NCBI GenBank assembly: GCA_902805995.1
Contig: CADCUU010000301.1
Location: 1-13,119 of the forward strand
Reading direction: 5' to 3'
DNA: 13,119 nucleotides
From: an uncultured Rubellimicrobium sp.
GTDB lineage: Bacteria; Pseudomonadota; Alphaproteobacteria; Rhodobacterales; Rhodobacteraceae
The notes under the pieces: generated by a model
What the model was told of the DNA's origin: nothing
What the model saw: the letters and a program-made list of their open reading frames with translations, nothing else
Database searches by the model: none
Shown: one piece after another, positions 1,948 to 13,119 of the stretch
How positions within the stretch are numbered: the first letter of the stretch is position 1
How the letters are laid out: every line of letters begins with the position of its first letter
Translations under genes and position numbers: made by a program

Positions 1948-2406
1948 TCATGCTGGGTTCCGGGGCTCCTCGTGCGGGGCATGATCGGCACGGAGGAGTT
2001 CGAAGTCCTGCCGCACCTCGGCCAGGGTCCGGCTTCCGAGTTCAAGGAGCAGAACGGCCTCGGCCTTGGCGAAGGCGTTTGCGAGGGTGGCGTTCACGGC
2101 CCTTTCCACGAGGCATTCGGGGTGGTCGCGCGCCGGACCCAGGGCAAAGACCGATCCGGGGCCGAGAGCCTCGTGGATGTCGCGAAGGGTGATCCGGTCG
2201 AGCGGGCGCGCGAGCCGCCAGCCGCCGTGGTGACCCTTTTCGGAGTGGACGAGGCCGCGGTCGCGCAGGCCCGCCATGGTGCGCCGCACGACCACGGGAT
2301 TGGTGTTGAGCATGGCCGCGATGGCTTGCGAGGTCGCGGCGCCCTCGTGCTCGGCCATGTGGATGAGGACGTGAAGCATGCGCGACAGGCGCAGGTCCTT
2401 GCTCAT
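1948..2406 (-). CDS. Rrf2-family transcriptional regulator with a single cysteine
   Basis: A 152-residue DNA-binding regulator, a normal length for Rrf2. The N-terminal winged helix-turn-helix (about residues 1-82) includes the typical recognition-helix pattern TNPVVVRRTM and a wing ending in GHHGGWRLARP. The rest is a helical dimerisation region. IscR and NsrR use three clustered cysteines to bind an Fe-S cluster. Here only one cysteine is present, Cys98 in HPECLVERAV, so it probably does not bind a cluster in the IscR manner. Thiol-redox sensing through Cys98 is an inference. The start at 2406 is set by AAAGGAG five bases upstream; the open frame continues further but would read through the divergent gene. 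It is divergent from the CPYC flavoprotein gene and most likely controls that gene and itself. Confidence 0.88.
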   Translation of the reverse strand: MSKDLRLSRMLHVLIHMAEHEGAATSQAIAAMLNTNPVVVRRTMAGLRDRGLVHSEKGHHGGWRLARPLDRITLRDIHEALGPGSVFALGPARDHPECLVERAVNATLANAFAKAEAVLLLELGSRTLAEVRQDFELLRADHAPHEEPRNPA

Positions 2407-2437
2407 GGAGGCTCCTTTCCCGGGTCGGGCCTGTCTG

Positions 2438-2466
2438 GAGTTAGGCCCTCCGGGCGCCTTTCGCAA
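2438..2466 (-). promoter_or_regulatory. Candidate promoter of the Rrf2 gene
   Basis: Read on the minus strand, TTGCGA (2466-2461) and TAACTC (2443-2438) are separated by 17 bp, ending about 31 bases before the Rrf2 start. This is a fair match to a housekeeping sigma-70 promoter for such GC-rich DNA. It rests on sequence resemblance only. Confidence 0.35.
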
Positions 2467-2485
2467 CTCAGACTGTGACATCACC

Positions 2486-2515
2486 TTGACAGGTCGTCCA
2501 TCATGTAACACATGA
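2486..2515 (+). promoter_or_regulatory. Candidate promoter with overlapping 15-bp palindromic operator
   Basis: A perfect TTGACA (-35 type) sits at 2486-2491. Sixteen to eighteen bases downstream, where the -10 should be, there is no good TATAAT match (ACACAT or ACATGA at best). The perfect inverted repeat TCATGT-AAC-ACATGA (2501-2515) lies across this position. A small repeat ACCT-TGAC-AGGT (2483-2494) overlaps the -35. The site is 45 bp upstream of the flavoprotein start and faces the divergent Rrf2 gene. It is the obvious candidate binding site for that regulator, which would then block RNA polymerase directly. Confidence 0.5.
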
Positions 2516-2559
2516 AGTTCTATTTGTGGCCGCAAGGCCCGTTCGGGAAGGAGAGCAGC

Positions 2560-3450
2560 ATGATGTACGAGGCCATCGTGATCGGAGGCAGCTACGCCGG
2601 GATTTCGGCAGCGCTTCAGTTGGCCCGCGCGCGACGGCGGGTGCTGGTAATCGACGCCGGGGAACGCCGGAACCGCTTTGCCGCGACCTCGCACGGGTTC
2701 CTGGGTCAGGACGGGCGCGCGCCGGGCGAGATCGTGGCGGAGGCGCGGGACCAACTCCTCCGCTATCCGAACGTGGCCTGGCATTCGGGGCTGGCCTTGT
2801 CGGCCCGCCGCGCGGGCGAGGGCTTTGCCGTCGAGATCGGAGACGGCGCCGTGCAGGGGGATCGCGTGGTCCTCGCTGTCGGGGTGAGCGACACCCTGCC
2901 GGACGTGCCGGGCCTTGCGGAGCGCTGGGGCCGGTCGGTCTTTCACTGCCCGTATTGCCATGGCTACGAGCTGAACCAGGGGCGGATCGGCGTCCTCGCC
3001 GGGTCGGAGCTGTCCATGCACCACGCCCTCCTGCTGCCTGACTGGGGTCCGACGACGTTCTTCCTGAACGGGACCTTCGAGCCCGACGCCGAGCAGCGTG
3101 CCGAGCTGGAACGGCGGGGCGCCGTGGTGGAGCGGACGCCGGTCGCGCGCGTCACGGGGGAGCGGGCCGACGTGGTCCTAGCGGACGGGCGCGAGATCTC
3201 GCTCGACGGGCTCTTCACGCTGAGCCGCACCCGGCCCTCGGGCACGCTGGCGGGGCAGTTGGGCTGCCGGCTGGAGGAGAGCCCGATGGGCCGGTTCATC
3301 GCGGTGGACGGGATCTTCCGCACTTCCGTGCCGGGCGTGATGGCCTGCGGGGATGCGGCGCGGGCGGCAGGGTCGGTGGCTCTCGCGGTGGGGGACGGGG
3401 CCATGGCCGGGGTCAGCACGCATCGCTCGCTGATCTTTGGGCCGGGCTGA
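2560..3450 (+). CDS. NAD(P)/FAD-dependent oxidoreductase, thioredoxin-reductase-like with CPYC disulfide
   Basis: A 296-residue two-domain flavoprotein of the thioredoxin reductase fold. The FAD-binding dinucleotide motif is at the N-terminus (VIGGSYAG, residues 7-14) and the second FAD contact near the C-terminus (ACGDAA, 262-267). The redox pair is Cys130 and Cys133 in HCPYCHGYE. True bacterial thioredoxin reductases have CATC. CPYC followed by HGYE is typical of the dithiol-oxidase/TrxR-like branch that includes fungal GliT-type enzymes. The central pyridine-nucleotide region (VLAGSELS, about 145-152) lacks the canonical GxGxxG/A and HRR motifs, so NADPH use is doubtful. The start is ATG 2560 because AAGGAG lies six bases upstream; an in-frame ATG at 2512 would place translation inside the palindrome and add 16 unlikely residues. 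Its physiological substrate is unknown. The divergent Rrf2 gene suggests redox-responsive expression. Confidence 0.88.
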   Translation: MMYEAIVIGGSYAGISAALQLARARRRVLVIDAGERRNRFAATSHGFLGQDGRAPGEIVAEARDQLLRYPNVAWHSGLALSARRAGEGFAVEIGDGAVQGDRVVLAVGVSDTLPDVPGLAERWGRSVFHCPYCHGYELNQGRIGVLAGSELSMHHALLLPDWGPTTFFLNGTFEPDAEQRAELERRGAVVERTPVARVTGERADVVLADGREISLDGLFTLSRTRPSGTLAGQLGCRLEESPMGRFIAVDGIFRTSVPGVMACGDAARAAGSVALAVGDGAMAGVSTHRSLIFGPG

Positions 3451-4485: not shown

Positions 4486-4730
4486 TGCGGCGGGGCGGCT
4501 GAGCGGCGCGGCCCTCAATGATTCGAGACTGTCGCTAGGTTGTGTGGGGGTGCGTCCTGTCGCGAGGGCCCGTTCGCTGCCCTCGCGTTCGGGGGCCCAT
4601 TGTCGCGTCCGAGGTGGAAGCCAGCGCGATGCGCCTTACCTTCGCCGCGCAGAACAATGCCGGACGTGGCGGCTGGGGCGATAGGCTCCGGGCCGGCCCG
4701 AGCCGGAGGACACCGAGGCGAGGGGACGAC

Positions 4731-5486
4731 GTGGCCGAGGGGCAGGGCTCAGGCGAATCAAGTCCGGACATCCTTCGGGGCAGCCGGCTTCTGGAAGGCT
4801 TGTCCGAGGCGGATCGGAACATCCTGCGGCCGCTCCTGTCGAGGGTGGTCCTTCGCCAGGGCGAAGCGCTGTTCCAACCCGGGGAGGAGGTCACCTCGGT
4901 CCATTTCCCCTGCGGCGGAACGACGATCGCGCTGGTCGTCCTGTTGCCCCCGGCCGAGATGGCCCAGGCCGGCGTCATCGGGTGCGAGGGGGCGGTGGGC
5001 GCGGTCGTGAGCCGTGGGCGCAAGCCGGCCTTCGTGCGCGCCGTGGCCCAGATCCCCGGCGAGGCCTGCCGGATCGAGGTCGATGCCCTGGAGGAGGCGC
5101 AGTCCCGCTCCCCGACCCTGGCGGACGCCATCGCGCGCTATTCGGACTGCCTGCTCGCGTATCTGCTGCAGGCCGTAGCCTGCAACCGGCTGCACACGCT
5201 CGAGCAGCGGATGGCGAGCCTTCTGCTGTGGGTGCAGGACCGACAGGAGCGGGGGGATCTTCCCCTCACCCAGGAGGACTTGGGCGCGATGCTGGGTGTC
5301 GGCCGAACCTACGTGACGAAGACCGCGGCGGCCTTTCAGGCGCAGGGGTTGATCGGCTATCGGCGCGGGCACATCCGGGTCCTGGACCGGCCCGCTTTGT
5401 CGGCACGGTGCTGCCCCTGTCCGTCGCTGGTCCGAGACCATTTCGAGCGGGTCCTGCCCGGGGTCCATCCCCTCCCGGCAGCTTGA
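4731..5486 (+). CDS. Crp/Fnr-family transcriptional regulator, first of a tandem pair
   Basis: A 251-residue regulator with an N-terminal cyclic-nucleotide-binding-fold domain (about residues 20-140) and a C-terminal Crp-type winged helix (about 178-225, LTQEDLGAMLGVGRTYVTK). The effector loop (GCEGAVGAVVSRGRKPAF) does not match the classical cAMP site. The N-terminal Fe-S cysteines of Fnr are absent, so the ligand is unknown. A Cys-rich tail (ARCCPCPSLVRDHF) and the ending VLPGVHP are features of a large alphaproteobacterial subgroup. The chosen start is GTG 4731, preceded by GAGGGG five bases away. It gives a length and N-terminus matching the paralogue downstream. Alternatives are ATG 4629 (285 residues) and GTG 4542 (314 residues), whose extra residues look non-coding. 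It is followed after 162 bp by its paralogue. Confidence 0.85.
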   Translation: MAEGQGSGESSPDILRGSRLLEGLSEADRNILRPLLSRVVLRQGEALFQPGEEVTSVHFPCGGTTIALVVLLPPAEMAQAGVIGCEGAVGAVVSRGRKPAFVRAVAQIPGEACRIEVDALEEAQSRSPTLADAIARYSDCLLAYLLQAVACNRLHTLEQRMASLLLWVQDRQERGDLPLTQEDLGAMLGVGRTYVTKTAAAFQAQGLIGYRRGHIRVLDRPALSARCCPCPSLVRDHFERVLPGVHPLPAA

Positions 5487-5578: not shown

Positions 5579-5648
5579 TCACCCGAAAGCGGGGTGCGTC
5601 CGGATCCTGTGATCCGCGTGCCGATGTGAGCCGGGGGACGAGTTGACG

Positions 5649-6419
5649 ATGCGACAGGGGCAGGGACGGCGGCGCGCCGGCGTGGCGAAAGGCGTGGGCC
5701 CGTCCAGCCGCCTTCTGTCGGCCCTTGGCTACGAGGATCGCGCCCTGCTGGCCCCCCATCTGGCCGCGGTCCAGTTTGTCAGGGGCTCCATGCTGTTCGA
5801 CGCGGGCGACGACGTGGTGAGCACGCATTTTCCCTGCGACGGGACCATGGTGTCGCTCGTGGTCGCGCTGCCCGACGGCGCCCTGGCCGAGACGGCAACC
5901 GTGGGCCGCGAGGGGGCGATCGGCGGGATCGTGTCGATGGGCCACAAGCCCGCCTTTGCCCGGGCCGTGGTGCAGATCGGGGGCCCGGCCCTGCGGATCG
6001 ACACGGCGCGGCTGGAGGAGCTGAAGATGCAGTCGCCCAGCCTTCGCGACACCATCTCGCGCTATGCCAACTGCCTGATCGCGCAGATCCTCCAGTCGGT
6101 GGCCTGCAACGTCATGCACAGCCTGGAGCCGCGGTTCTGCCGCTGGCTCCTGATGGCGCAGGACCGATCCGGGGGAAGCCTCGTCCCGCTGACCCAGGAG
6201 TTCCTGGCCGAGATGCTGGGCGTGCAGCGCACCACGGTGACGGCGGTGGCGGCCTCGCTTCAGGCGCGCAACCTCATCGCCTATGCGCGGGGGCGGATCA
6301 CCATCGTGGACCGCGCCGGGCTGGAAGCGGTGGCCTGCGGGTGCCACGACGCCGTGGTGCGTCACTTCGAATGCGTGCTTCCGGGCGTTTATCCCTTGTT
6401 TGGAGGGGCGCCGGCATGA
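5649..6419 (+). CDS. Crp/Fnr-family transcriptional regulator, second of a tandem pair
   Basis: A 256-residue paralogue of the preceding regulator, alignable over nearly its whole length with roughly half the residues identical by eye. The nucleotide-binding-fold domain spans about residues 25-145, including HFPCDGT and VGREGAIGG. The Crp-type helix-turn-helix is about 180-228 (LTQEFLAEMLGVQRTTVTAV). The tail VACGCHDAVVRHFECVLPGVYP retains a CxC pair and the conserved ending. The recognition helix differs from that of the first copy (QRTTVTAV against GRTYVTKT), so the DNA targets may differ. The start is ATG 5649; a TTG at 5643, nearer the GGGGGA at 5633-5638, would add two residues. It ends 124 bp before the giant kinase gene, so co-transcription with it is possible but not shown. 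Confidence 0.86.
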   Translation: MRQGQGRRRAGVAKGVGPSSRLLSALGYEDRALLAPHLAAVQFVRGSMLFDAGDDVVSTHFPCDGTMVSLVVALPDGALAETATVGREGAIGGIVSMGHKPAFARAVVQIGGPALRIDTARLEELKMQSPSLRDTISRYANCLIAQILQSVACNVMHSLEPRFCRWLLMAQDRSGGSLVPLTQEFLAEMLGVQRTTVTAVAASLQARNLIAYARGRITIVDRAGLEAVACGCHDAVVRHFECVLPGVYPLFGGAPA

Positions 6420-6444
6420 AAGAGTTCGCCTGCTTCCGGGGGGT

Positions 6445-6517
6445 CGGACGGTGCGTCCGTGTTCGGCCCCGCGTCGCTATGTCGTTTGCTGCGTCCAGTG
6501 CGGGCCAGTTTTGCCCG
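6445..6517 (+). promoter_or_regulatory. Two hairpins in the leader of the giant kinase gene
   Basis: CGGACG-GTG-CGTCCG (6445-6459) is a perfect 6-bp inverted repeat. CGGGC (6501-6505) and GCCCG (6513-6517) flank a seven-base loop. Both lie in the 124-bp gap before the kinase, upstream of its ribosome binding site at 6528-6536. The first could be an operator or an RNA hairpin. The second has its T-run in the loop, not after the stem, so it is not a standard terminator. No convincing -35/-10 pair was found in the gap. Confidence 0.3.
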
Positions 6518-6543
6518 AACATTCCCTAGAGGAAGGCCCGGCC

Positions 6544-9500
6544 ATGAGTCATCCGACCCAACGCGACAGTCAGAGCCGCAAGCCCGCCGCCTGGAAAGGG
6601 GAAGTGGACTTCCGCGCCCTTGCCGACAGCCTGCCGGGACTGGTCTTCGTCTGTGACGCCTCGGGGGCCTGCATCTTCACCAACACCCGTTATCAGGAGT
6701 TCACGGGCCTGAGGCGGGACGAATGGCTCGGCGCCGGTTGGGCGGAGGCGATCCATCCCGACGACCGCCTGGCCACCGTGGAAGGCTGGATCGCCGCCGT
6801 CGCCGTGGCGGAGCCCTACGAGGTGGAGTACCGGCTACGTGCGGCCGACGGGGATCATGCGTGGTTCCTGGTCCGGGCGACGCCCGTGCGCGAACATGGG
6901 CGGGTGGTGCGCTGGGTCGGGCATGCCACCGACATCGAAGACGCCAAGCGCGCCGGGGCGGCCCGCGCGGCGGCCCTGTCCGCCACGGTGGACCAGTGCA
7001 GGACGGACCAGCGCGCTGCCGAGGCCTTTGCGGCGCGGCTCGTGGAGGCGACCACCGACAGCATCAAGACCCTGTCGCCGGACGGCCGCGTCCTGTCCTT
7101 GAACTCGGCGGGCCTCGCCTCCACCGACGCCACCTGCGTCGAGGATGTCCTGGGGCGGCCTTGGGTCGAGAGATGGCGCGGGACGGGCTACCATGTCGCC
7201 GCGCAGCAGGCCATCGAAGTCGCCCGGGCGGGCGGGGTCGGGCGGTTCGTGGGGCGGCACCGGAGGCCGGACGGCGGCCTCGCATGGTGGAACGTGATCA
7301 TCACGCCGATCCGCGACGCGATGGGCCGGACGGAGCGGCTCCTGTGCGTGGCGCGCGACGTGACAGACGTGAAGGAGGCCGCCGAGCGTGCCCGCCTCAT
7401 CGCCGAGACGGTCCGCGAGGTCTTCTATCAGGTGGAGATCGGGAGCGGGCGGATCAGCTATGTGAGCCCCGCCTACGAGGTGGTCTGGGGCCGGTCCGCC
7501 GCGGAGCTCGTGGCCGATCCGCTGGCCTGGATGGAGGCGATCCACCCCGAGGACCGCCCCAAGGTTCAGGAGGCCATGTCGCGCCAGCGCCGGGGCGAGG
7601 CGACGCGCCGCGAGTACCGGATCCTTCGCCCCGATGGCGAGTTGCGATACGTCCGCGACCTCTGCCATCCGGTGTTTGACGCCGAGGGACGCACTGCGCA
7701 GGTGGTAGGCGCGATCGAGGACATCACCGAGATCACAGAGATGAGGGCGCGCGCCGCCGCGGCGGACGAGGCGCGCTACCGTGGCGTCTTCGAGCACGCC
7801 ACGGTGGGCATCGCGCGCGTGGCCCTGGACGGGCGGTTCCTCGAGGTGAACGGCCATTTCTGCGAGATGCTGGACTACAGCCGGGAGGAGCTGCTGGCGG
7901 GCGGGTTCCAGGAGATCACCCATCCGGAGGACCTGGACGCCGACCTCGCCAACGTGGCCACCCTTCTGGACGGCCGGGCCGAGTCCTACAGCATGGAGAA
8001 GCGCTACATCACGCGGACGGGCCGCGTGCTGCGCGCCAACCTTACCGGGGGGATCGTGCGGGCGCCGGGGGGGACGGCCGACCATTTCGTCGCGGTGGTG
8101 CGGCCCCTGCCGGACGGGGGCGCCGTGGACGAGGCTGAGTTCCGGGCCCTGCAGGACAGCGAGCGCGCCGCGGCCTTCCGACTCGATCTGGCGGATGCCC
8201 TGCGAACCCTGGACGATCCAGCCAGCATGATGGACGCTGCGACGGAACGTTTGGGCCGGCATCTGGGCGTGGCGCAGGTGGGCTTTGCCGAGGTGGACGA
8301 GTCGGGTCAGCACATCGCCGTTCACTGCGTCTGGGGCGACGGACGGGTCCCCTCGGTGAGGGGCACCTGGCGCATGGACGATTTCGGGCCGCAGTTCATT
8401 GCCGACATGAAGGCGGGCGCGACCATCGTCATCCCCGACGTGGCCGCGGACTTCCGTACCAACGCCGCCCAGGTGCTGGAGGCCTACCGTGGGATTGGCA
8501 CGCGGGCGATCCTGAACCGCGGGCTGCTGCGCGACGGGAGGATGACGGCGCTCCTCTTCATCCACCATCACGAGCCGCGCGACTGGTCGCCGTCCGACGT
8601 GGCCCTGGCCGAGGAGGTCGCCGAGCGGCTCTGGTCGGCGGTGGAGCGGGTGCGGACCGAGCGGCAGCTCGTGGAAAGCGAGGCGCTGGCGCGGGACCGC
8701 CTGGCCGAGCTCGACCAGCTCTACCTCCATGCGCCGGTGGGGCTCTGCACTGTTGACCGCGACTACCGGCTGACGCGCATCAACGCGCATATGGCGGAGA
8801 TCAACGGCGTCCCGGTCGAGGAGAGCCTGGGCCGGACCATGTGGGAGGTCGTCCCTGACCTAGCCCACCACCTCGTCGAGGTGTACCGACCGGTGCTGGA
8901 GCGGGGCGAGCCCGTGCTGGACGTGAGCCTGCACGGAGAGACGCCGGCCTTGCCGGGGGTCCCGCGCGACTGGCTGGCCAACTACTTCCCGTTGCTTTCA
9001 GGCTCCGGCGAGGTGATGGGCCTCATCGGGGTCGTGGTGGAGGTCACCGACCGCAAGCGGGCGGATGAGCGGCTGGCCGAAAGCGAGGCGCGGTTCCGTG
9101 CGATCACCGACGCGATGCCCCAGATCGTCTGGTCCACGCTCCCCGACGGCTTCCACGACTTCTACAACGCGCGCTGGTACGAGTTCACCGGCGTGGCCGA
9201 GGGTTCCACCGACGGCGAGGGCTGGAACGAGATCTTCCATCCCGAGGATCAGGCCAGGTCCTTGGCGCGGTGGTCCCAGAGCCTTGGGTCCGGGGAGCCC
9301 TACGAGATCGAGTATCGCCTTCGCCACAATTCGGGCGAGTACCGGTGGGTGCTGGGCCGGGCGCTGCCGATCCGCAACGACGCGGGCGAGATCATCCGCT
9401 GGATGGGCACCTGCACCGACATCCATGAAATCGTGGAAACACGACAGGCCCTAGCCGAAAGCCGCCTGGACGTCGAAAGGGCCAAGGCCGAGCTGGAGAC

Positions 9501-11202
9501 CCGGGTGGCCGAACGCACGGCGGCCCTGGAGGAGGTGGCGCGCACGCTGCGCGAGGAGATGGCCCGGCGGGAGGAGGCGCAGAGCCATCTGCTCCAGGCC
9601 CAGAAGATGGAGGCGCTGGGCCAGCTCGTGGGCGGCGTGGCGCATGATTTCAACAATATCCTGGCCGCGGTGCAAGGCGCGTTCGCGGTGCTGGACCGCC
9701 GGGTGGACAACCCGAAGCTGAAGCCGATCATCGAGCAGGGACAAAAGGCCGGCGACCGGGCCGCCGCCCTTGTGCGCCAGATGCTGGCATTCGCGCGGCG
9801 GGAGGACGTGGCCCCGAAGGTCGTGGAGACGGGGGAGCTGGTTGCCAGCCTGGAGGGGATGATCTGCCACACCGTGGGCGCGCGGGTCGCCTGCCAGTTC
9901 GACATCGCCCCGAACGCCTGGCCGGTGCTGGTGGACCCCCATCAGCTGGAGGTCACTCTCCTGAACCTTGCCATCAATGCGCGGGACGCGATGGAGGGCG
10001 AGGGGACGCTTCGGGTCGGCGTGCGCAATCTCCGGCCGGGGGAATGGCGGCCTGGGCTGCTCGGCCCGGGGGACCACGTCGTGCTGACGGTGGCCGATAC
10101 CGGCGTCGGCATGGACGCCCCCACCATCGCGCGCGTCTTTGAGCCGTTCTTCACCACGAAGCCGGTGGGGCAGGGCACCGGGCTCGGACTCGCGCAGGTG
10201 CATGGCTTCGTCCAGGGCGCGGGCGGCGCGATCCATGTCGAGAGCACGCCGGGGCAGGGGACGACCATGTCGCTCTTCCTGCCGCGCTCGGCCATTGCGG
10301 CCTCGGCCGAGGCGGTCGCGCCGATCGTGTCGCCGGCGTTGCATGGCCGCGCGACCCTTCTGGTCGTCGACGACGACGAACAGGTACGCCCGGTCACGGC
10401 GGCCTATCTGCGGGACCTGGGCTATTCCGTGATCGAGGCGGCGAGCGCTGGCGCCGCCCTGGCCCTTTCGCGGATCCACGGCATCGACCTGCTGCTGTCG
10501 GACGTAGTCATGCCCGGCAGCGACGGCCCGACCCTCGCGCGGCAGCTTCGGGCCGAGCGGCCGTTCCTGCCGGTGGTCTTCATGACTGGCTTCACCGGCG
10601 AGCATCGTCTGGAGGGCGAGGCGGTCCTGACCAAGCCCTTCACCGGCCCGACGCTGGAGTTGCATATCCTGCGGGTCCTGGGCCGCATCGACAGCCGGGC
10701 GGCCGAGCGGCTGGGCACGCCCCCGCGTGAGCCCGAGCGGCTTCTGCTCCGGATGAAGGCGCCGAACCTGCGCCTCGCCCATGAGCGGTGGAGCGGCGCA
10801 CGCAGCGGGCGGCGCCTGCCCGACCTTACGAACTTCGACGCCGCGGGCCTCGACACCGGGGCGATGATCCTGCTGCGGCCGGAATCCGAGGGTGCACGGC
10901 TGGATTTCCGTGTCCTGACCGTGGGCGAGGACCTGAGCCAGCGTCTGGGCGAGCCTTGGGAAGGCCGTCTCATCACGCCAGAGGCCGAGGTGGCGCTGGG
11001 CTCCATGGAGGAGGCCTACCAGCGCTGCCTCGCGACGCTGGCGCCGACCTATGAGTGGGCGAGGTTGCGGCTGGGCGACAGGGTCGTGCGGTTCGAACGC
11101 CTGCTGTTGCCCTTCTCCGTGGACGGGGCGAACATCTCGCAGCTGCTGGGCCTGATCCAGTTCGACGAGTCGGATGCGCCGATGCCGGACCACAGGGGTT
11201 GA
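6544..11202 (+). CDS. Giant soluble hybrid histidine kinase: six PAS, GAF, HisKA, HATPase, receiver, PAS_5-like
   Basis: A 1552-residue multi-input kinase with no membrane segment. PAS domains lie at about residues 22-135, 160-277, 287-399, 408-525, 722-838 and 848-960, several with the PAC-type HPDD/HPED and DIT/DVT signatures. A GAF domain (about 543-702) sits between the fourth and fifth PAS. A coiled coil (about 962-1020) leads to HisKA with His1034 in GGVAHDFNN. The HATPase shows LLNLAINARDAM (Asn1141/Asn1145), D1185-TGVG, E1200-PFFTTK and GQGTGLGL. The receiver has Asp1276-1278, phospho-acceptor Asp1320 and Lys1364. After it, residues 1400-1548 form a PAS_5/DUF1457-like domain (W1416, LDFRVLTVGEDL, FERLLLPFS), an unusual position. 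The start ATG 6544 has AGAGGAAGG seven bases upstream; the frame is open from 6283 but overlaps the previous gene. The PYP gene follows two bases after the stop. Ligands are unknown. Confidence 0.92.
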   Translation: MSHPTQRDSQSRKPAAWKGEVDFRALADSLPGLVFVCDASGACIFTNTRYQEFTGLRRDEWLGAGWAEAIHPDDRLATVEGWIAAVAVAEPYEVEYRLRAADGDHAWFLVRATPVREHGRVVRWVGHATDIEDAKRAGAARAAALSATVDQCRTDQRAAEAFAARLVEATTDSIKTLSPDGRVLSLNSAGLASTDATCVEDVLGRPWVERWRGTGYHVAAQQAIEVARAGGVGRFVGRHRRPDGGLAWWNVIITPIRDAMGRTERLLCVARDVTDVKEAAERARLIAETVREVFYQVEIGSGRISYVSPAYEVVWGRSAAELVADPLAWMEAIHPEDRPKVQEAMSRQRRGEATRREYRILRPDGELRYVRDLCHPVFDAEGRTAQVVGAIEDITEITEMRARAAAADEARYRGVFEHATVGIARVALDGRFLEVNGHFCEMLDYSREELLAGGFQEITHPEDLDADLANVATLLDGRAESYSMEKRYITRTGRVLRANLTGGIVRAPGGTADHFVAVVRPLPDGGAVDEAEFRALQDSERAAAFRLDLADALRTLDDPASMMDAATERLGRHLGVAQVGFAEVDESGQHIAVHCVWGDGRVPSVRGTWRMDDFGPQFIADMKAGATIVIPDVAADFRTNAAQVLEAYRGIGTRAILNRGLLRDGRMTALLFIHHHEPRDWSPSDVALAEEVAERLWSAVERVRTERQLVESEALARDRLAELDQLYLHAPVGLCTVDRDYRLTRINAHMAEINGVPVEESLGRTMWEVVPDLAHHLVEVYRPVLERGEPVLDVSLHGETPALPGVPRDWLANYFPLLSGSGEVMGLIGVVVEVTDRKRADERLAESEARFRAITDAMPQIVWSTLPDGFHDFYNARWYEFTGVAEGSTDGEGWNEIFHPEDQARSLARWSQSLGSGEPYEIEYRLRHNSGEYRWVLGRALPIRNDAGEIIRWMGTCTDIHEIVETRQALAESRLDVERAKAELETRVAERTAALEEVARTLREEMARREEAQSHLLQAQKMEALGQLVGGVAHDFNNILAAVQGAFAVLDRRVDNPKLKPIIEQGQKAGDRAAALVRQMLAFARREDVAPKVVETGELVASLEGMICHTVGARVACQFDIAPNAWPVLVDPHQLEVTLLNLAINARDAMEGEGTLRVGVRNLRPGEWRPGLLGPGDHVVLTVADTGVGMDAPTIARVFEPFFTTKPVGQGTGLGLAQVHGFVQGAGGAIHVESTPGQGTTMSLFLPRSAIAASAEAVAPIVSPALHGRATLLVVDDDEQVRPVTAAYLRDLGYSVIEAASAGAALALSRIHGIDLLLSDVVMPGSDGPTLARQLRAERPFLPVVFMTGFTGEHRLEGEAVLTKPFTGPTLELHILRVLGRIDSRAAERLGTPPREPERLLLRMKAPNLRLAHERWSGARSGRRLPDLTNFDAAGLDTGAMILLRPESEGARLDFRVLTVGEDLSQRLGEPWEGRLITPEAEVALGSMEEAYQRCLATLAPTYEWARLRLGDRVVRFERLLLPFSVDGANISQLLGLIQFDESDAPMPDHRG

Positions 11203-11204
11203 AC

Positions 11205-11591
11205 TTGAAGTCATCGACACGTCCCGAGTTCGAAGACCCGGACCTTGCCCGGAAGGTGGAAGCCCTGCCCGAGGCGGAGGTGGACGCGCTCCCCTTCGGG
11301 GCCATCCGGCTCGATCCGGAGGGGGTGGTGCAGGTTTACAGCCGGGCCGAGCGGCATCTCTCGGGCTCGGGCGAGCGGGAGCGGCTGGGGCTCGACTTCT
11401 TCAGCCAGATCGCACCTTGCATGAACACGCCGAGCTTCCGGGGCCGGATCGAGAAGGCGCGCGCCGCGGGGCACCTCGACCTTGAATTCGGCTATGTGGG
11501 CGATTTCATCGACCGGGAGCGCGAGCTGACGGTGCGCGTGCAGCCCGCCTCGCAAGGCGGCATCTGGATCTTCATGCGCCGGGAGGATTGA
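11205..11591 (+). CDS. pyp: Photoactive yellow protein (PYP), blue-light sensor
   Basis: A 128-residue PAS-fold protein that aligns with Halorhodospira halophila PYP (125 residues, from memory) with a constant +3 offset and no gaps until near the C-terminus. The chromophore-attaching Cys69 is Cys72 in QIAPCMNTP. Tyr42 and Glu46, which hydrogen-bond the p-coumaroyl phenolate, are Tyr45 and Glu49. Thr50 is Ser53, keeping the hydroxyl. The N-terminal cap and the PFGAIRLD strand are present. Differences are Arg52 to Ser55, Phe96 to Gly99, Tyr98 to Phe101 and Met100 to Asp103. The start is TTG 11205, with AGGGG six bases upstream. TTG 11199 would overlap the kinase stop. Either start implies translational coupling to the giant kinase. 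Chromophore synthesis genes are not in the window, so holoprotein formation depends on genes elsewhere. Confidence 0.9.
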   Translation: MKSSTRPEFEDPDLARKVEALPEAEVDALPFGAIRLDPEGVVQVYSRAERHLSGSGERERLGLDFFSQIAPCMNTPSFRGRIEKARAAGHLDLEFGYVGDFIDRERELTVRVQPASQGGIWIFMRRED

Positions 11592-11872: not shown

Positions 11873-13119
11873 ATGCCGCCGCACGATGCCGCCGCAGACT
11901 GGCCCCTTGGGGGGACCGAGCCGGCCCGGCTCGTTCGCGCGCATCCCTGGGCGAAGACGCCGTTCGGACCGGTCGAGGGCTGGTCGCCGGCCTTGCGGAC
12001 GATCGTGGACCTGATGCTCGGCTCGGGCACGATGATGTGCCTGATGTGGGGGCCCTCCGCCGCGCTCATCTACAACGAGCCCTATGCCCGCCGCATCGGC
12101 AACGACCACCCGGCCGCCCTGGGCCGATCCGCCTTCGAGGTCTGGCCCGACCTGAGGCACATGTTCGAAGAGCAGTTCGCGCGAGCGCTGGGTGGAGAGG
12201 AGGCGCATGTCCGTGCCCAGCCGCTGCAGCTGGCCGAACGCGGCGCTGCGCCGCGGGATCACTGGTTCGACCTGACCTACACCCCGGTGCGCGAACGCGA
12301 CGGGCGGGTTGTGGGGGTGCTCGTGCGCCTGACGGACACGACAGAGCACATCTTGGCCGACCAGGCCCTGCGCCGAGGCCAGGAGCGGCAGACGTTCCTC
12401 CTTCGCTTGTCCGACGCGCTTCGCTCCCTGGGGAACCCGGTCGAGGTCCAGACGGTGGCCGCGCGGCTTCTGGGGGAGCATCTGCGCGCCAGCGGCGCCG
12501 TGTACGCCGAGAATCTGGGCGACGGAGGGATGGTCGTCACGCCCGACTGCACCGACGACGCGCCCGGATCCGAAAGATCCTGCCGGTTCGACGACCTAGG
12601 CGAGGATCTCCTCCGCGAGATGCGGGCAGGCCGCGCCGTGGTCCGGCCCGATATCGCCAACGATCCCGTGTTGGGCGAAGCCGACAAGGCGGCCCATGCC
12701 GCCCGGCGGATCGGGGCCACGCTGAACGTGCCGCTTGTCCGGGGCGGGCGACTGCTGGCCATCCTGTCCGTTCATTACGCGGCAGCCCGCGACATGACGC
12801 CCGGCGAGGTTGCGCTGGCGCAGGAGGTGGCCGAGCGCACCTGGTCGGCGGTGGAGCGTGCCAGGGCCGAGGAGGCGCTCCGGCACAGCGAGGAGCGATT
12901 CCGCGCTTTGGCCGAGCAGGCCGAGGTCGGGATCGCCATGTCCGACCGGGAGCAGCGGTTCGTCTATGTCAACGACACCTATGCCAGGATCGTCGGGCGG
13001 CGGCCCGAGGAGATCCTTGGCCGGACCATTGAGGACCTGACCGCGCCCGAGGACTGGACGCAGAACAAGCCGCTTCTTGAGGCGGCGCTGTCCGGGGGCC
13101 GGCCCTTCATCATAGAAAA
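11873..13119 (+). CDS. PAS-GAF-PAS sensor protein, probable histidine kinase (3' end outside window)
   Basis: An open frame of 415 codons without a stop, running off the right edge. ATG 11873 is preceded by GGGAGG about seven bases upstream. An N-terminal PAS-like module (about residues 20-155) has the same W..TPFGP...W...LR opening and WGP, YNEPYA and VWPDL pattern as the kinase at 121-1869. A GAF domain follows (about 170-330), ending in VALAQEVAERTWSAVERARAEEAL, which closely matches the GAF end of the giant kinase (VALAEEVAERLWSAVERVRTE). A second PAS begins near residue 340 (EERFRALAEQAEVGIAMSD) and is cut at FII. The GAF has no obvious bilin-binding cysteine, so phytochrome-type light sensing is unlikely. 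A kinase core downstream is expected from family architecture but not seen. Confidence 0.85.
   Translation, partial: MPPHDAAADWPLGGTEPARLVRAHPWAKTPFGPVEGWSPALRTIVDLMLGSGTMMCLMWGPSAALIYNEPYARRIGNDHPAALGRSAFEVWPDLRHMFEEQFARALGGEEAHVRAQPLQLAERGAAPRDHWFDLTYTPVRERDGRVVGVLVRLTDTTEHILADQALRRGQERQTFLLRLSDALRSLGNPVEVQTVAARLLGEHLRASGAVYAENLGDGGMVVTPDCTDDAPGSERSCRFDDLGEDLLREMRAGRAVVRPDIANDPVLGEADKAAHAARRIGATLNVPLVRGGRLLAILSVHYAAARDMTPGEVALAQEVAERTWSAVERARAEEALRHSEERFRALAEQAEVGIAMSDREQRFVYVNDTYARIVGRRPEEILGRTIEDLTAPEDWTQNKPLLEAALSGGRPFIIE

Follow-up and report, generated by a model that had tools for sequence, protein, structure and literature searches.

Can a photoactive yellow protein (PYP) that is encoded on its own serve as the sensory input of a two-component kinase? 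This question is raised by a stretch of 13,119 nucleotides from an uncultured Rubellimicrobium sp. (contig CADCUU010000301.1; the whole stretch is called the window here), in which a small PYP-family gene (11205..11591, + strand) directly follows the gene of a large hybrid histidine kinase (6283..11202, + strand). The initial annotation of the window had proposed an apparently functional photoreceptor coupled to this kinase. We find that the two genes form a real and conserved module, for which the partnership of the two proteins is better founded, and photoreception less well founded, than that annotation had claimed. The locus is probably a two-gene sensor-kinase module in which the PYP is the detached input subunit of the upstream hybrid kinase.

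A PYP homologue encoded behind a hybrid histidine kinase

The small gene comprises 387 nt and encodes a protein of 128 amino acids from a TTG start codon. ORF (open reading frame) translation, profile, PDB search and structure model agree that the product is a PYP homologue, with a match beyond chance. Its sole match in NCBIfam is TIGR02373 (photoactive yellow protein; E 4.6e-26, 91.3 bits), a score below the equivalog cut-off of 143.05 bits; this profile is stated to recover about 20% of the PYP homologues (Xing 2022, PMC9664959). In Pfam the protein has no match at E 0.01, and at a looser limit only PAS and PAS_4 appear, both below their cut-offs. All 33 matches of a sequence search against the PDB are PYPs, PYP mutants or PYP-derived proteins, with 1mzu (Ppr-PYP) on top (E 2.2e-20). 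The AlphaFold2 model (pLDDT 87.6) has the PYP fold; in a Foldseek search its first 40 ranks are all PYPs or FAST proteins derived from PYP, with TMq 0.85 for the top hit.

The residues of the chromophore site are intact. Cys72 (codon at 11418), Tyr45 (11337), Glu49 (11349) and Ser53 (11361), all on the + strand, are present as the initial annotation had reported; the first three correspond to Cys69, Tyr42 and Glu46 of the H. halophila protein, and Cys69, which carries the chromophore thioester, is the family criterion of Xing 2022 (PMC9664959). Further positions of interest are Met73 (11421), Gly99 (11499), Asp103 (11511) and Trp121 (11565). The reading frame itself had been recognized earlier, but with wrong coordinates: the interval 11194-11591 given for it is not divisible by three, and 11194 is the first base of an AGGGG motif.

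This motif (11194..11198, + strand) lies in the end of the kinase gene and, judged by eye, resembles a Shine-Dalgarno sequence which is well spaced for the TTG at 11205. At the junction of the two genes (11199..11207, + strand) two bases separate the kinase stop codon TGA (11200-11202) from this TTG, exactly as noted before. A second in-frame TTG (11199-11201) overlaps the kinase stop (TTGA) and is a possible start with a 4-nt overlap.

The kinase consists of six PAS stretches (matched by TIGR00229), followed by GAF, HisKA, HATPase and receiver domains, which were likewise matched, and a C-terminal PAS-like tail. The HisKA histidine (codon at 9643), the HATPase domain and the receiver aspartate (10501), together with the receiver lysine (10633), characterize it as a hybrid histidine kinase. 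ATG 6544 is likely to be the real start (1552 aa); it was chosen by eye and preferred because an overlap with the upstream gene is thereby avoided. The six-PAS hybrid kinase of the initial annotation can thus be retained, supplemented by the tail behind the receiver, which had gone unmentioned.

A distinct PYP clade

A search of the protein database with the window PYP gave 162 matches. The following counts refer to the 120 of them that were among the matches listed plus the window protein (121 rows, H. halophila numbering). Cys69, Glu46, Ser50, Gly96 and Trp119 equivalents are kept in all 121 rows, and almost the same holds for Phe92, Met70 and Asp100 (120/121 each), Tyr42 (115/121) and Ser43 (109/121). 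The hallmarks of this group are N43S, T50S, T70M, F96G and M100D, while ten classical PYPs from other genomes have Asn43, Arg52 and Phe96 without exception. Among the source names of the matches are Sphingomonas, Dankookia, Sphingorhabdus and a metagenome-assembled genome of Polaromonas.

A tree built from 57 rows unites all 26 rows of this group on one long branch (support 99/95), separate from classical PYPs, Ppr, the PYPs fused to histidine kinases or to methyl-accepting chemotaxis proteins (MCPs) and the clade C PYPs. By its sequence, the window PYP thus belongs to a distinct, well-supported PYP clade, called the clade PYP in the following. With respect to clade A of Xing 2022, for which grouping with H. 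halophila or Ppr-type PYPs would be expected, the tree gives the clade its own well-supported branch, but its junction with clade C has weak support (89/76) and the root was placed at the midpoint. A Ppr-like identity of the clade was rejected from residues and tree. Membership in clade C, whose proteins have lost Phe92, Phe96 and Trp119 and conserve Met100 (Xing 2022, PMC9664959), was considered too: the loss of Phe96 is shared, but the tree and the residues reject it, as Phe92 (120/121) and Trp119 (121/121) are kept and Met100 is replaced by Asp (120/121).

Conservation of the kinase-PYP pair

In each of the 11 genomes whose DNA was read, belonging to three lineages, the clade PYP gene abuts or overlaps the gene of a tail-bearing hybrid kinase. 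The loci are the window, Sphingomonas sp. Leaf34 (L004), five from a genus of Azospirillaceae (L028, L035-L038) and four more from Sphingomonas (L077-L080). Every upstream kinase matches the window kinase in its core and C-terminal tail, and at every locus an in-frame PYP start codon begins between -3 and +4 relative to the final base of the kinase stop codon; the form is an ATGA overlap in 7 of the 11. The front ends of the kinases vary: six PAS domains and GAF in the window, a single PAS domain in Leaf34, and a dCache-like domain (below cut-off) with PAS domains in L028 and L037.

The tail was not found at any of 16 loci that carry other PYPs; as L032 and L076 are one region, these represent 15 distinct regions. 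Outside the pair, the only neighbours common to the three lineages are generic kinase or receiver matches. Chance synteny or descent from a single clone as the cause of the pairing was rejected in view of the three lineages and the otherwise differing neighbours, and the reservation of the initial annotation, that the adjacency might be unique to one strain, no longer applies.

For 19 pairs the distances between the PYPs and those between the kinases could be compared, although 8 of these pairs rest solely on an identical size of the longest contig. The H-box is present in 18 of the 19 kinases; the nineteenth is that of L038, which reaches the contig end, so that only its last part is visible. 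The correlation is high for the tail (r 0.90), the core (r 0.87) and the receiver (r 0.90), with none of 2000 permutations reaching such values, and shows that PYP and kinase are inherited as a unit. We consider a functional partnership between PYP and kinase very likely.

The C-terminal tail of the kinase

The tail (10693..11199, + strand; residues 1471-1639 of the window ORF) follows the receiver and is modelled with a PAS fold (pLDDT 81.6). Eleven aligned tails share invariant positions, among them YxRC, P, AR and FERLLLP. The tail is not an ordinary PAS_5 domain, since its score against PAS_5 (PF07310) is 16.5 bits with an approximate query, below the gathering cut-off of 22 bits, and the exact translation has no PAS_5 match at E <= 0.01.

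Among 250 Sphingomonas genomes, five match the tail profile with 212-240 bits, while no other genome exceeds 32 bits. These five are the same genomes that hold a clade PYP (200-219 bits), and tail and PYP are adjacent in all five; both profiles include the pair members themselves. As 17 candidates were scored for the PYP and 14 for the tail in this genus, the counts are lower bounds. In the protein database we found 30 tail kinases, each with the tail at its C-terminus, and for 8 of them the longest contig is identical in size to that of a clade PYP cluster (for example 1466690 and 193587), in a comparison which covered 93 of the 120 listed PYP clusters.

Because in the tested genus (Sphingomonas) the tail accompanies the clade PYP and is missing from the remaining kinases, we single it out as a candidate docking site for the PYP, a suggestion from sequence to which we would give about an even chance.

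A possible mechanism

According to the reading that we prefer, PYP and kinase would be synthesised together via translational coupling, and the PYP would bind to the back end of the kinase, where the PAS-like tail that follows the receiver is the most likely site. As PAS domains frequently associate with one another, a contact between PYP and tail beside the receiver would be the simplest geometry. Blue light, absorbed by a thioester-bound hydroxycinnamoyl chromophore on Cys72, would alter this contact, and the state of the PYP would change autophosphorylation or the relay through the receiver. The PYP would thus act as a fixed second input, with the variable front end (PAS/GAF or dCache-like) as the first one. 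For the loaded clade PYP a blue-shifted or normal band (about 430-445 nm) with slow dark recovery can be predicted, because Ser50 PYPs absorb near 432-434 nm in two cases (PMC12826048) and a role in the photocycle has been proposed for Met100 (PMC9664959).

Signalling might also run in the opposite direction, with the PYP as an output or feedback partner which reads the state of receiver and tail. Its gene position after the receiver and tail would suit this idea, as would the example of MopJ and similar PAS_5 proteins of a single domain, which have other kinases as targets (PMC4432633). As the PYP has no effector domain and published PYP fusions are read as input, we regard this as very improbable.

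Several findings weigh against a PYP that docks on the tail as a light-driven input subunit. Scanning of the 30 tail kinases with the PYP profile revealed no fusion to a PYP which could back a contact, and the distances of the PYP correlate just as well with those of the receiver, so that they give no preference to the tail as contact site. The tail occurs strictly with the clade PYP, but it is a far relative of PAS_5, which it matches below the cut-off. The missing fusion would fit an alternative in which the two genes are merely co-expressed, the PYP working in another pathway and the kinase not being its direct target. This alternative is made improbable by the pairing at 11 of 11 loci in different lineages, by the parallel occurrence of tail and PYP among the 250 Sphingomonas genomes and by the varying other neighbours. 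On the side of the PYP, the clade has Asp in place of Met100 and Gly in place of Phe96, two residues by which the photocycle is tuned in other PYPs. Further objections concern the supply of the chromophore.

Chromophore supply and the nature of the signal

Neither a tyrosine ammonia lyase (TAL) nor a PYP-type 4-coumarate-CoA ligase (pCL) is encoded within 5 kb of the clade PYP at any of the 11 loci. The pCL nearest to a pair lies about 7 kb away (G807) and stands beside another PYP gene. A search with PF00221 in 13 genomes gave aromatic ammonia lyase matches in the window genome G000 (two), in G587 (two) and in G550, G588, G589 and G590 (one each), whereas the five pair-bearing Sphingomonas genomes had no match. 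The second lyase of G587 adjoins a classical PYP and a pCL. Both lyases of G000 are, by eye, most likely histidine ammonia lyases (HutH) because they adjoin HutI-like ORFs. These two separate pairs of HutI-like and aromatic lyase genes (L002, L003) in one genome represent a paralogous hut locus or contamination.

The pCL profile was built from five rows, namely AMP-binding genes next to PYPs from four of seven control genomes and from G807, and it was searched in 18 genomes. In each of the seven control genomes, which hold classical PYPs, a strong pCL match (>=314 bits) lies within about 1.3 kb of a PYP gene. Strong matches also occur in 8 of the 11 genomes with the pair, each time less than 2 kb from another PYP gene and never at the pair. 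No PYP-type pCL was detected in G591 (Leaf34), G665 and G000, where only weak, generic AMP-binding matches appear (51.5, 44.5 and 38.9 bits, respectively). For G000 this absence is weak, because the assembly is incomplete and partly unreadable. In its original form the claim of an apparently functional photoreceptor is not supported: the site residues are there, but the check for TAL and pCL genes which the initial annotation had proposed speaks against it in the window genome.

A PYP that no longer, or not solely, senses light would account for these gaps. It could act as an apo-protein or carry another ligand or thioester on Cys72, and so pass a chemical or redox signal to the kinase. None of the five Sphingomonas genomes with the pair has a lyase match, the window genome and two of these five lack a PYP-type pCL, and in the other eight genomes with the pair the pCL is associated with different PYP genes. 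These observations would agree with a loss of light sensing, as would the clade-wide replacements Thr70Met, Phe96Gly, Met100Asp and Asn43Ser. A loss of light sensing has moreover been proposed for some Ppr-PYPs (Xing 2022, PMC9664959). On the other hand, Cys69 and Glu46 are conserved in 121 of 121 rows and Tyr42 in 115, which is difficult to understand unless a covalent hydroxycinnamoyl site is under selection. Missing linkage to the chromophore genes is also common, since only 32% of the predicted pyp operons contain a pCL and 5% a TAL (Dohmen 2025, PMC12826048). We therefore consider this alternative unlikely.

Uptake of p-coumarate or unlinked enzymes have been suggested for PYPs (PMC12826048). 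By analogy, the clade PYP may obtain its chromophore from imported p-coumarate that a general ligase activates. The genes that we found do not account for the supply of the chromophore; light is a fairly probable signal of the window PYP as part of the input-subunit reading. A more speculative and rather unlikely extension would see in the module a detector for the coincidence of blue light with hydroxycinnamates from plants. In this case a photoreceptor would form only when a suitable chromophore is supplied externally, the PYP would dock by PAS-PAS contact on a tail made for this purpose, and apo- and holo-PYP would give different kinase outputs.

Distribution

The window genome G000 comprises 3.03 Mb in 504 contigs and is 85% complete and 5.1% contaminated. 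The window contig has a GC content of 0.702 and a tetranucleotide correlation of 0.987 with the pooled readable contigs (14 sampled, five unreadable), so mis-binning is not suggested by composition. The nearest named relative of the window's GNAT gene comes from Tistlia (57% identity), and a metagenome-assembled genome of Rhodobacteraceae has one at 48%.

Near the window's own relatives the clade PYP is rare. It was found in one of eight genomes of its genus, in one of 198 of its family (one genome per genus; two further genomes hold classical PYPs), in two of 385 of its class (the window genome and G550) and in one of 398 of its phylum, which is the window genome itself. In these wide draws the best first-look candidates were scored (21 for the family, 11 for the class and 10 for the phylum), which makes the counts lower bounds. 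The genus of G550 (Azospirillaceae) has it in all five genomes, and Sphingomonas in five of 250. A scan of genome contigs with one sequence as query returned one locus, and an alignment as query would reach further. Plasmid records gave seven matches, all of other PYPs with less than 60% identity, and no clade member.

Neighbouring genes in the window

Directly upstream of the kinase gene two Crp/Fnr-type regulators (HTH_Crp_2) are encoded in tandem (4542-5486 and 5643-6419). PAS-type signalling proteins lie on either side of the pair (121-1869 and 11873-13119). The first is a hybrid histidine kinase, the second is truncated by the contig end, and by eye their N-termini are similar (ERDWAATPLGP.. 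and AHPWAKTPFGP..). In the region 1948-3450 a gene for an Rrf2-like regulator (by eye) on the - strand is divergent from a gene for a thioredoxin-reductase-like flavoprotein (2512-3450).

Comparison with known systems

The general idea of a PYP gene coupled to a histidine kinase has already been published. The view of the initial annotation that PYP signalling partners are poorly known outside fusions such as Ppr is outdated, since histidine kinase genes beside or upstream of pyp were described in 2022 and 2025. Clade A PYPs adjoin histidine kinases (Xing 2022, PMC9664959), and of 113 predicted pyp operons 8 contain HisKA and 9 HATPase_c upstream of pyp (Dohmen 2025, PMC12826048), for which two-component signalling was inferred. 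These operons (Table 2 of PMC12826048; clade A of PMC9664959) resemble the window in that their single-domain pyp is likewise preceded by a histidine kinase gene. Both papers state that the signal output of single-domain PYPs is unknown.

Literature searches gave no title or abstract describing the clade or the tail. Nor did the main-text sections of PMC9664959 and PMC12826048 contain the clade, the constant hybrid kinase, the tail or a test of co-occurrence, although their supplements may list some of the genomes. Relative to the literature sections covered, the new elements are thus the PYP clade, its constant tail-bearing hybrid kinase and the co-occurrence of tail and PYP. Two small proteins would suffice to examine partner, contact site and signalling direction. 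Should the binding be true, the tail may be a portable light-docking module, and the missing chromophore genes make the clade a good case for asking whether some PYPs rely on plant p-coumarate.

With Ppr (Rhodospirillum centenum) and Ppd the window shares the use of a PYP as kinase input, as far as our reading holds, the Ser at position 50 and 1mzu as best PDB relative. The window does not belong to the Ppr/Ppd type, however: PYP and kinase are separate ORFs, the kinase, a hybrid type that carries a receiver and the tail, lacks a phytochrome domain, and in the tree the PYP clade stands apart from Ppr. In L096 and L098 (G961, G1081) we observed Ppr-like proteins whose PYP domain has Ser instead of the chromophore Cys and Ala instead of Glu46, which fits the proposal of PMC9664959 that light sensing has been lost.

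A C-terminal PYP is also known from PAS-PAS-HisKA-HATPase proteins and from MCPs (PMC12826048). The kinase fusions (Fig. 5 of PMC12826048) differ from the window in that they carry another PYP clade with the canonical APCT motif, are fused, and have neither receiver nor tail. We found such kinases with a C-terminal canonical PYP in four genomes (L017, L024-L026, L039, L041; coordinates L039:5854-7857 and L041:4921-6852), all of one genus in which the pair occurs as well. Chemoreceptor signalling domains with a C-terminal PYP occur in two small alphaproteobacterial genomes (L044:2885-4774 and L015; G223, G355), where Gln stands for Glu46 and AIC replaces APC.

Clade C PYPs, which have GGDEF/EAL and pCL neighbours (Xing 2022), share with the window clade the Met after the Cys and occur in the same Sphingomonas genomes, but with regard to Phe92, Trp119 and Met100 the two clades are the reverse of each other. 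A second, clade C-like PYP (AQCMNN motif) is present in 26 of the 250 Sphingomonas genomes at E 1e-10 (L051-L074, L079:4993-5439, L080:12663-13034, L081:4625-4999). In L079 it heads a row of PYP, GGDEF, pCL-like and EAL genes, and this PYP is often annotated as a phosphonate transporter, as in one record of Sphingomonas.

MopJ from Caulobacter (PMC4432633) offers a parallel for a PAS_5-type domain in kinase signalling, to which the kinase tail is a remote relative. MopJ is a single-domain protein, whereas the window tail is fused behind a receiver and lies below the PAS_5 cut-off. Most known links of PYPs are loose neighbourhoods or fusions, whereas here one clade is joined to one type of partner and to a candidate contact domain.

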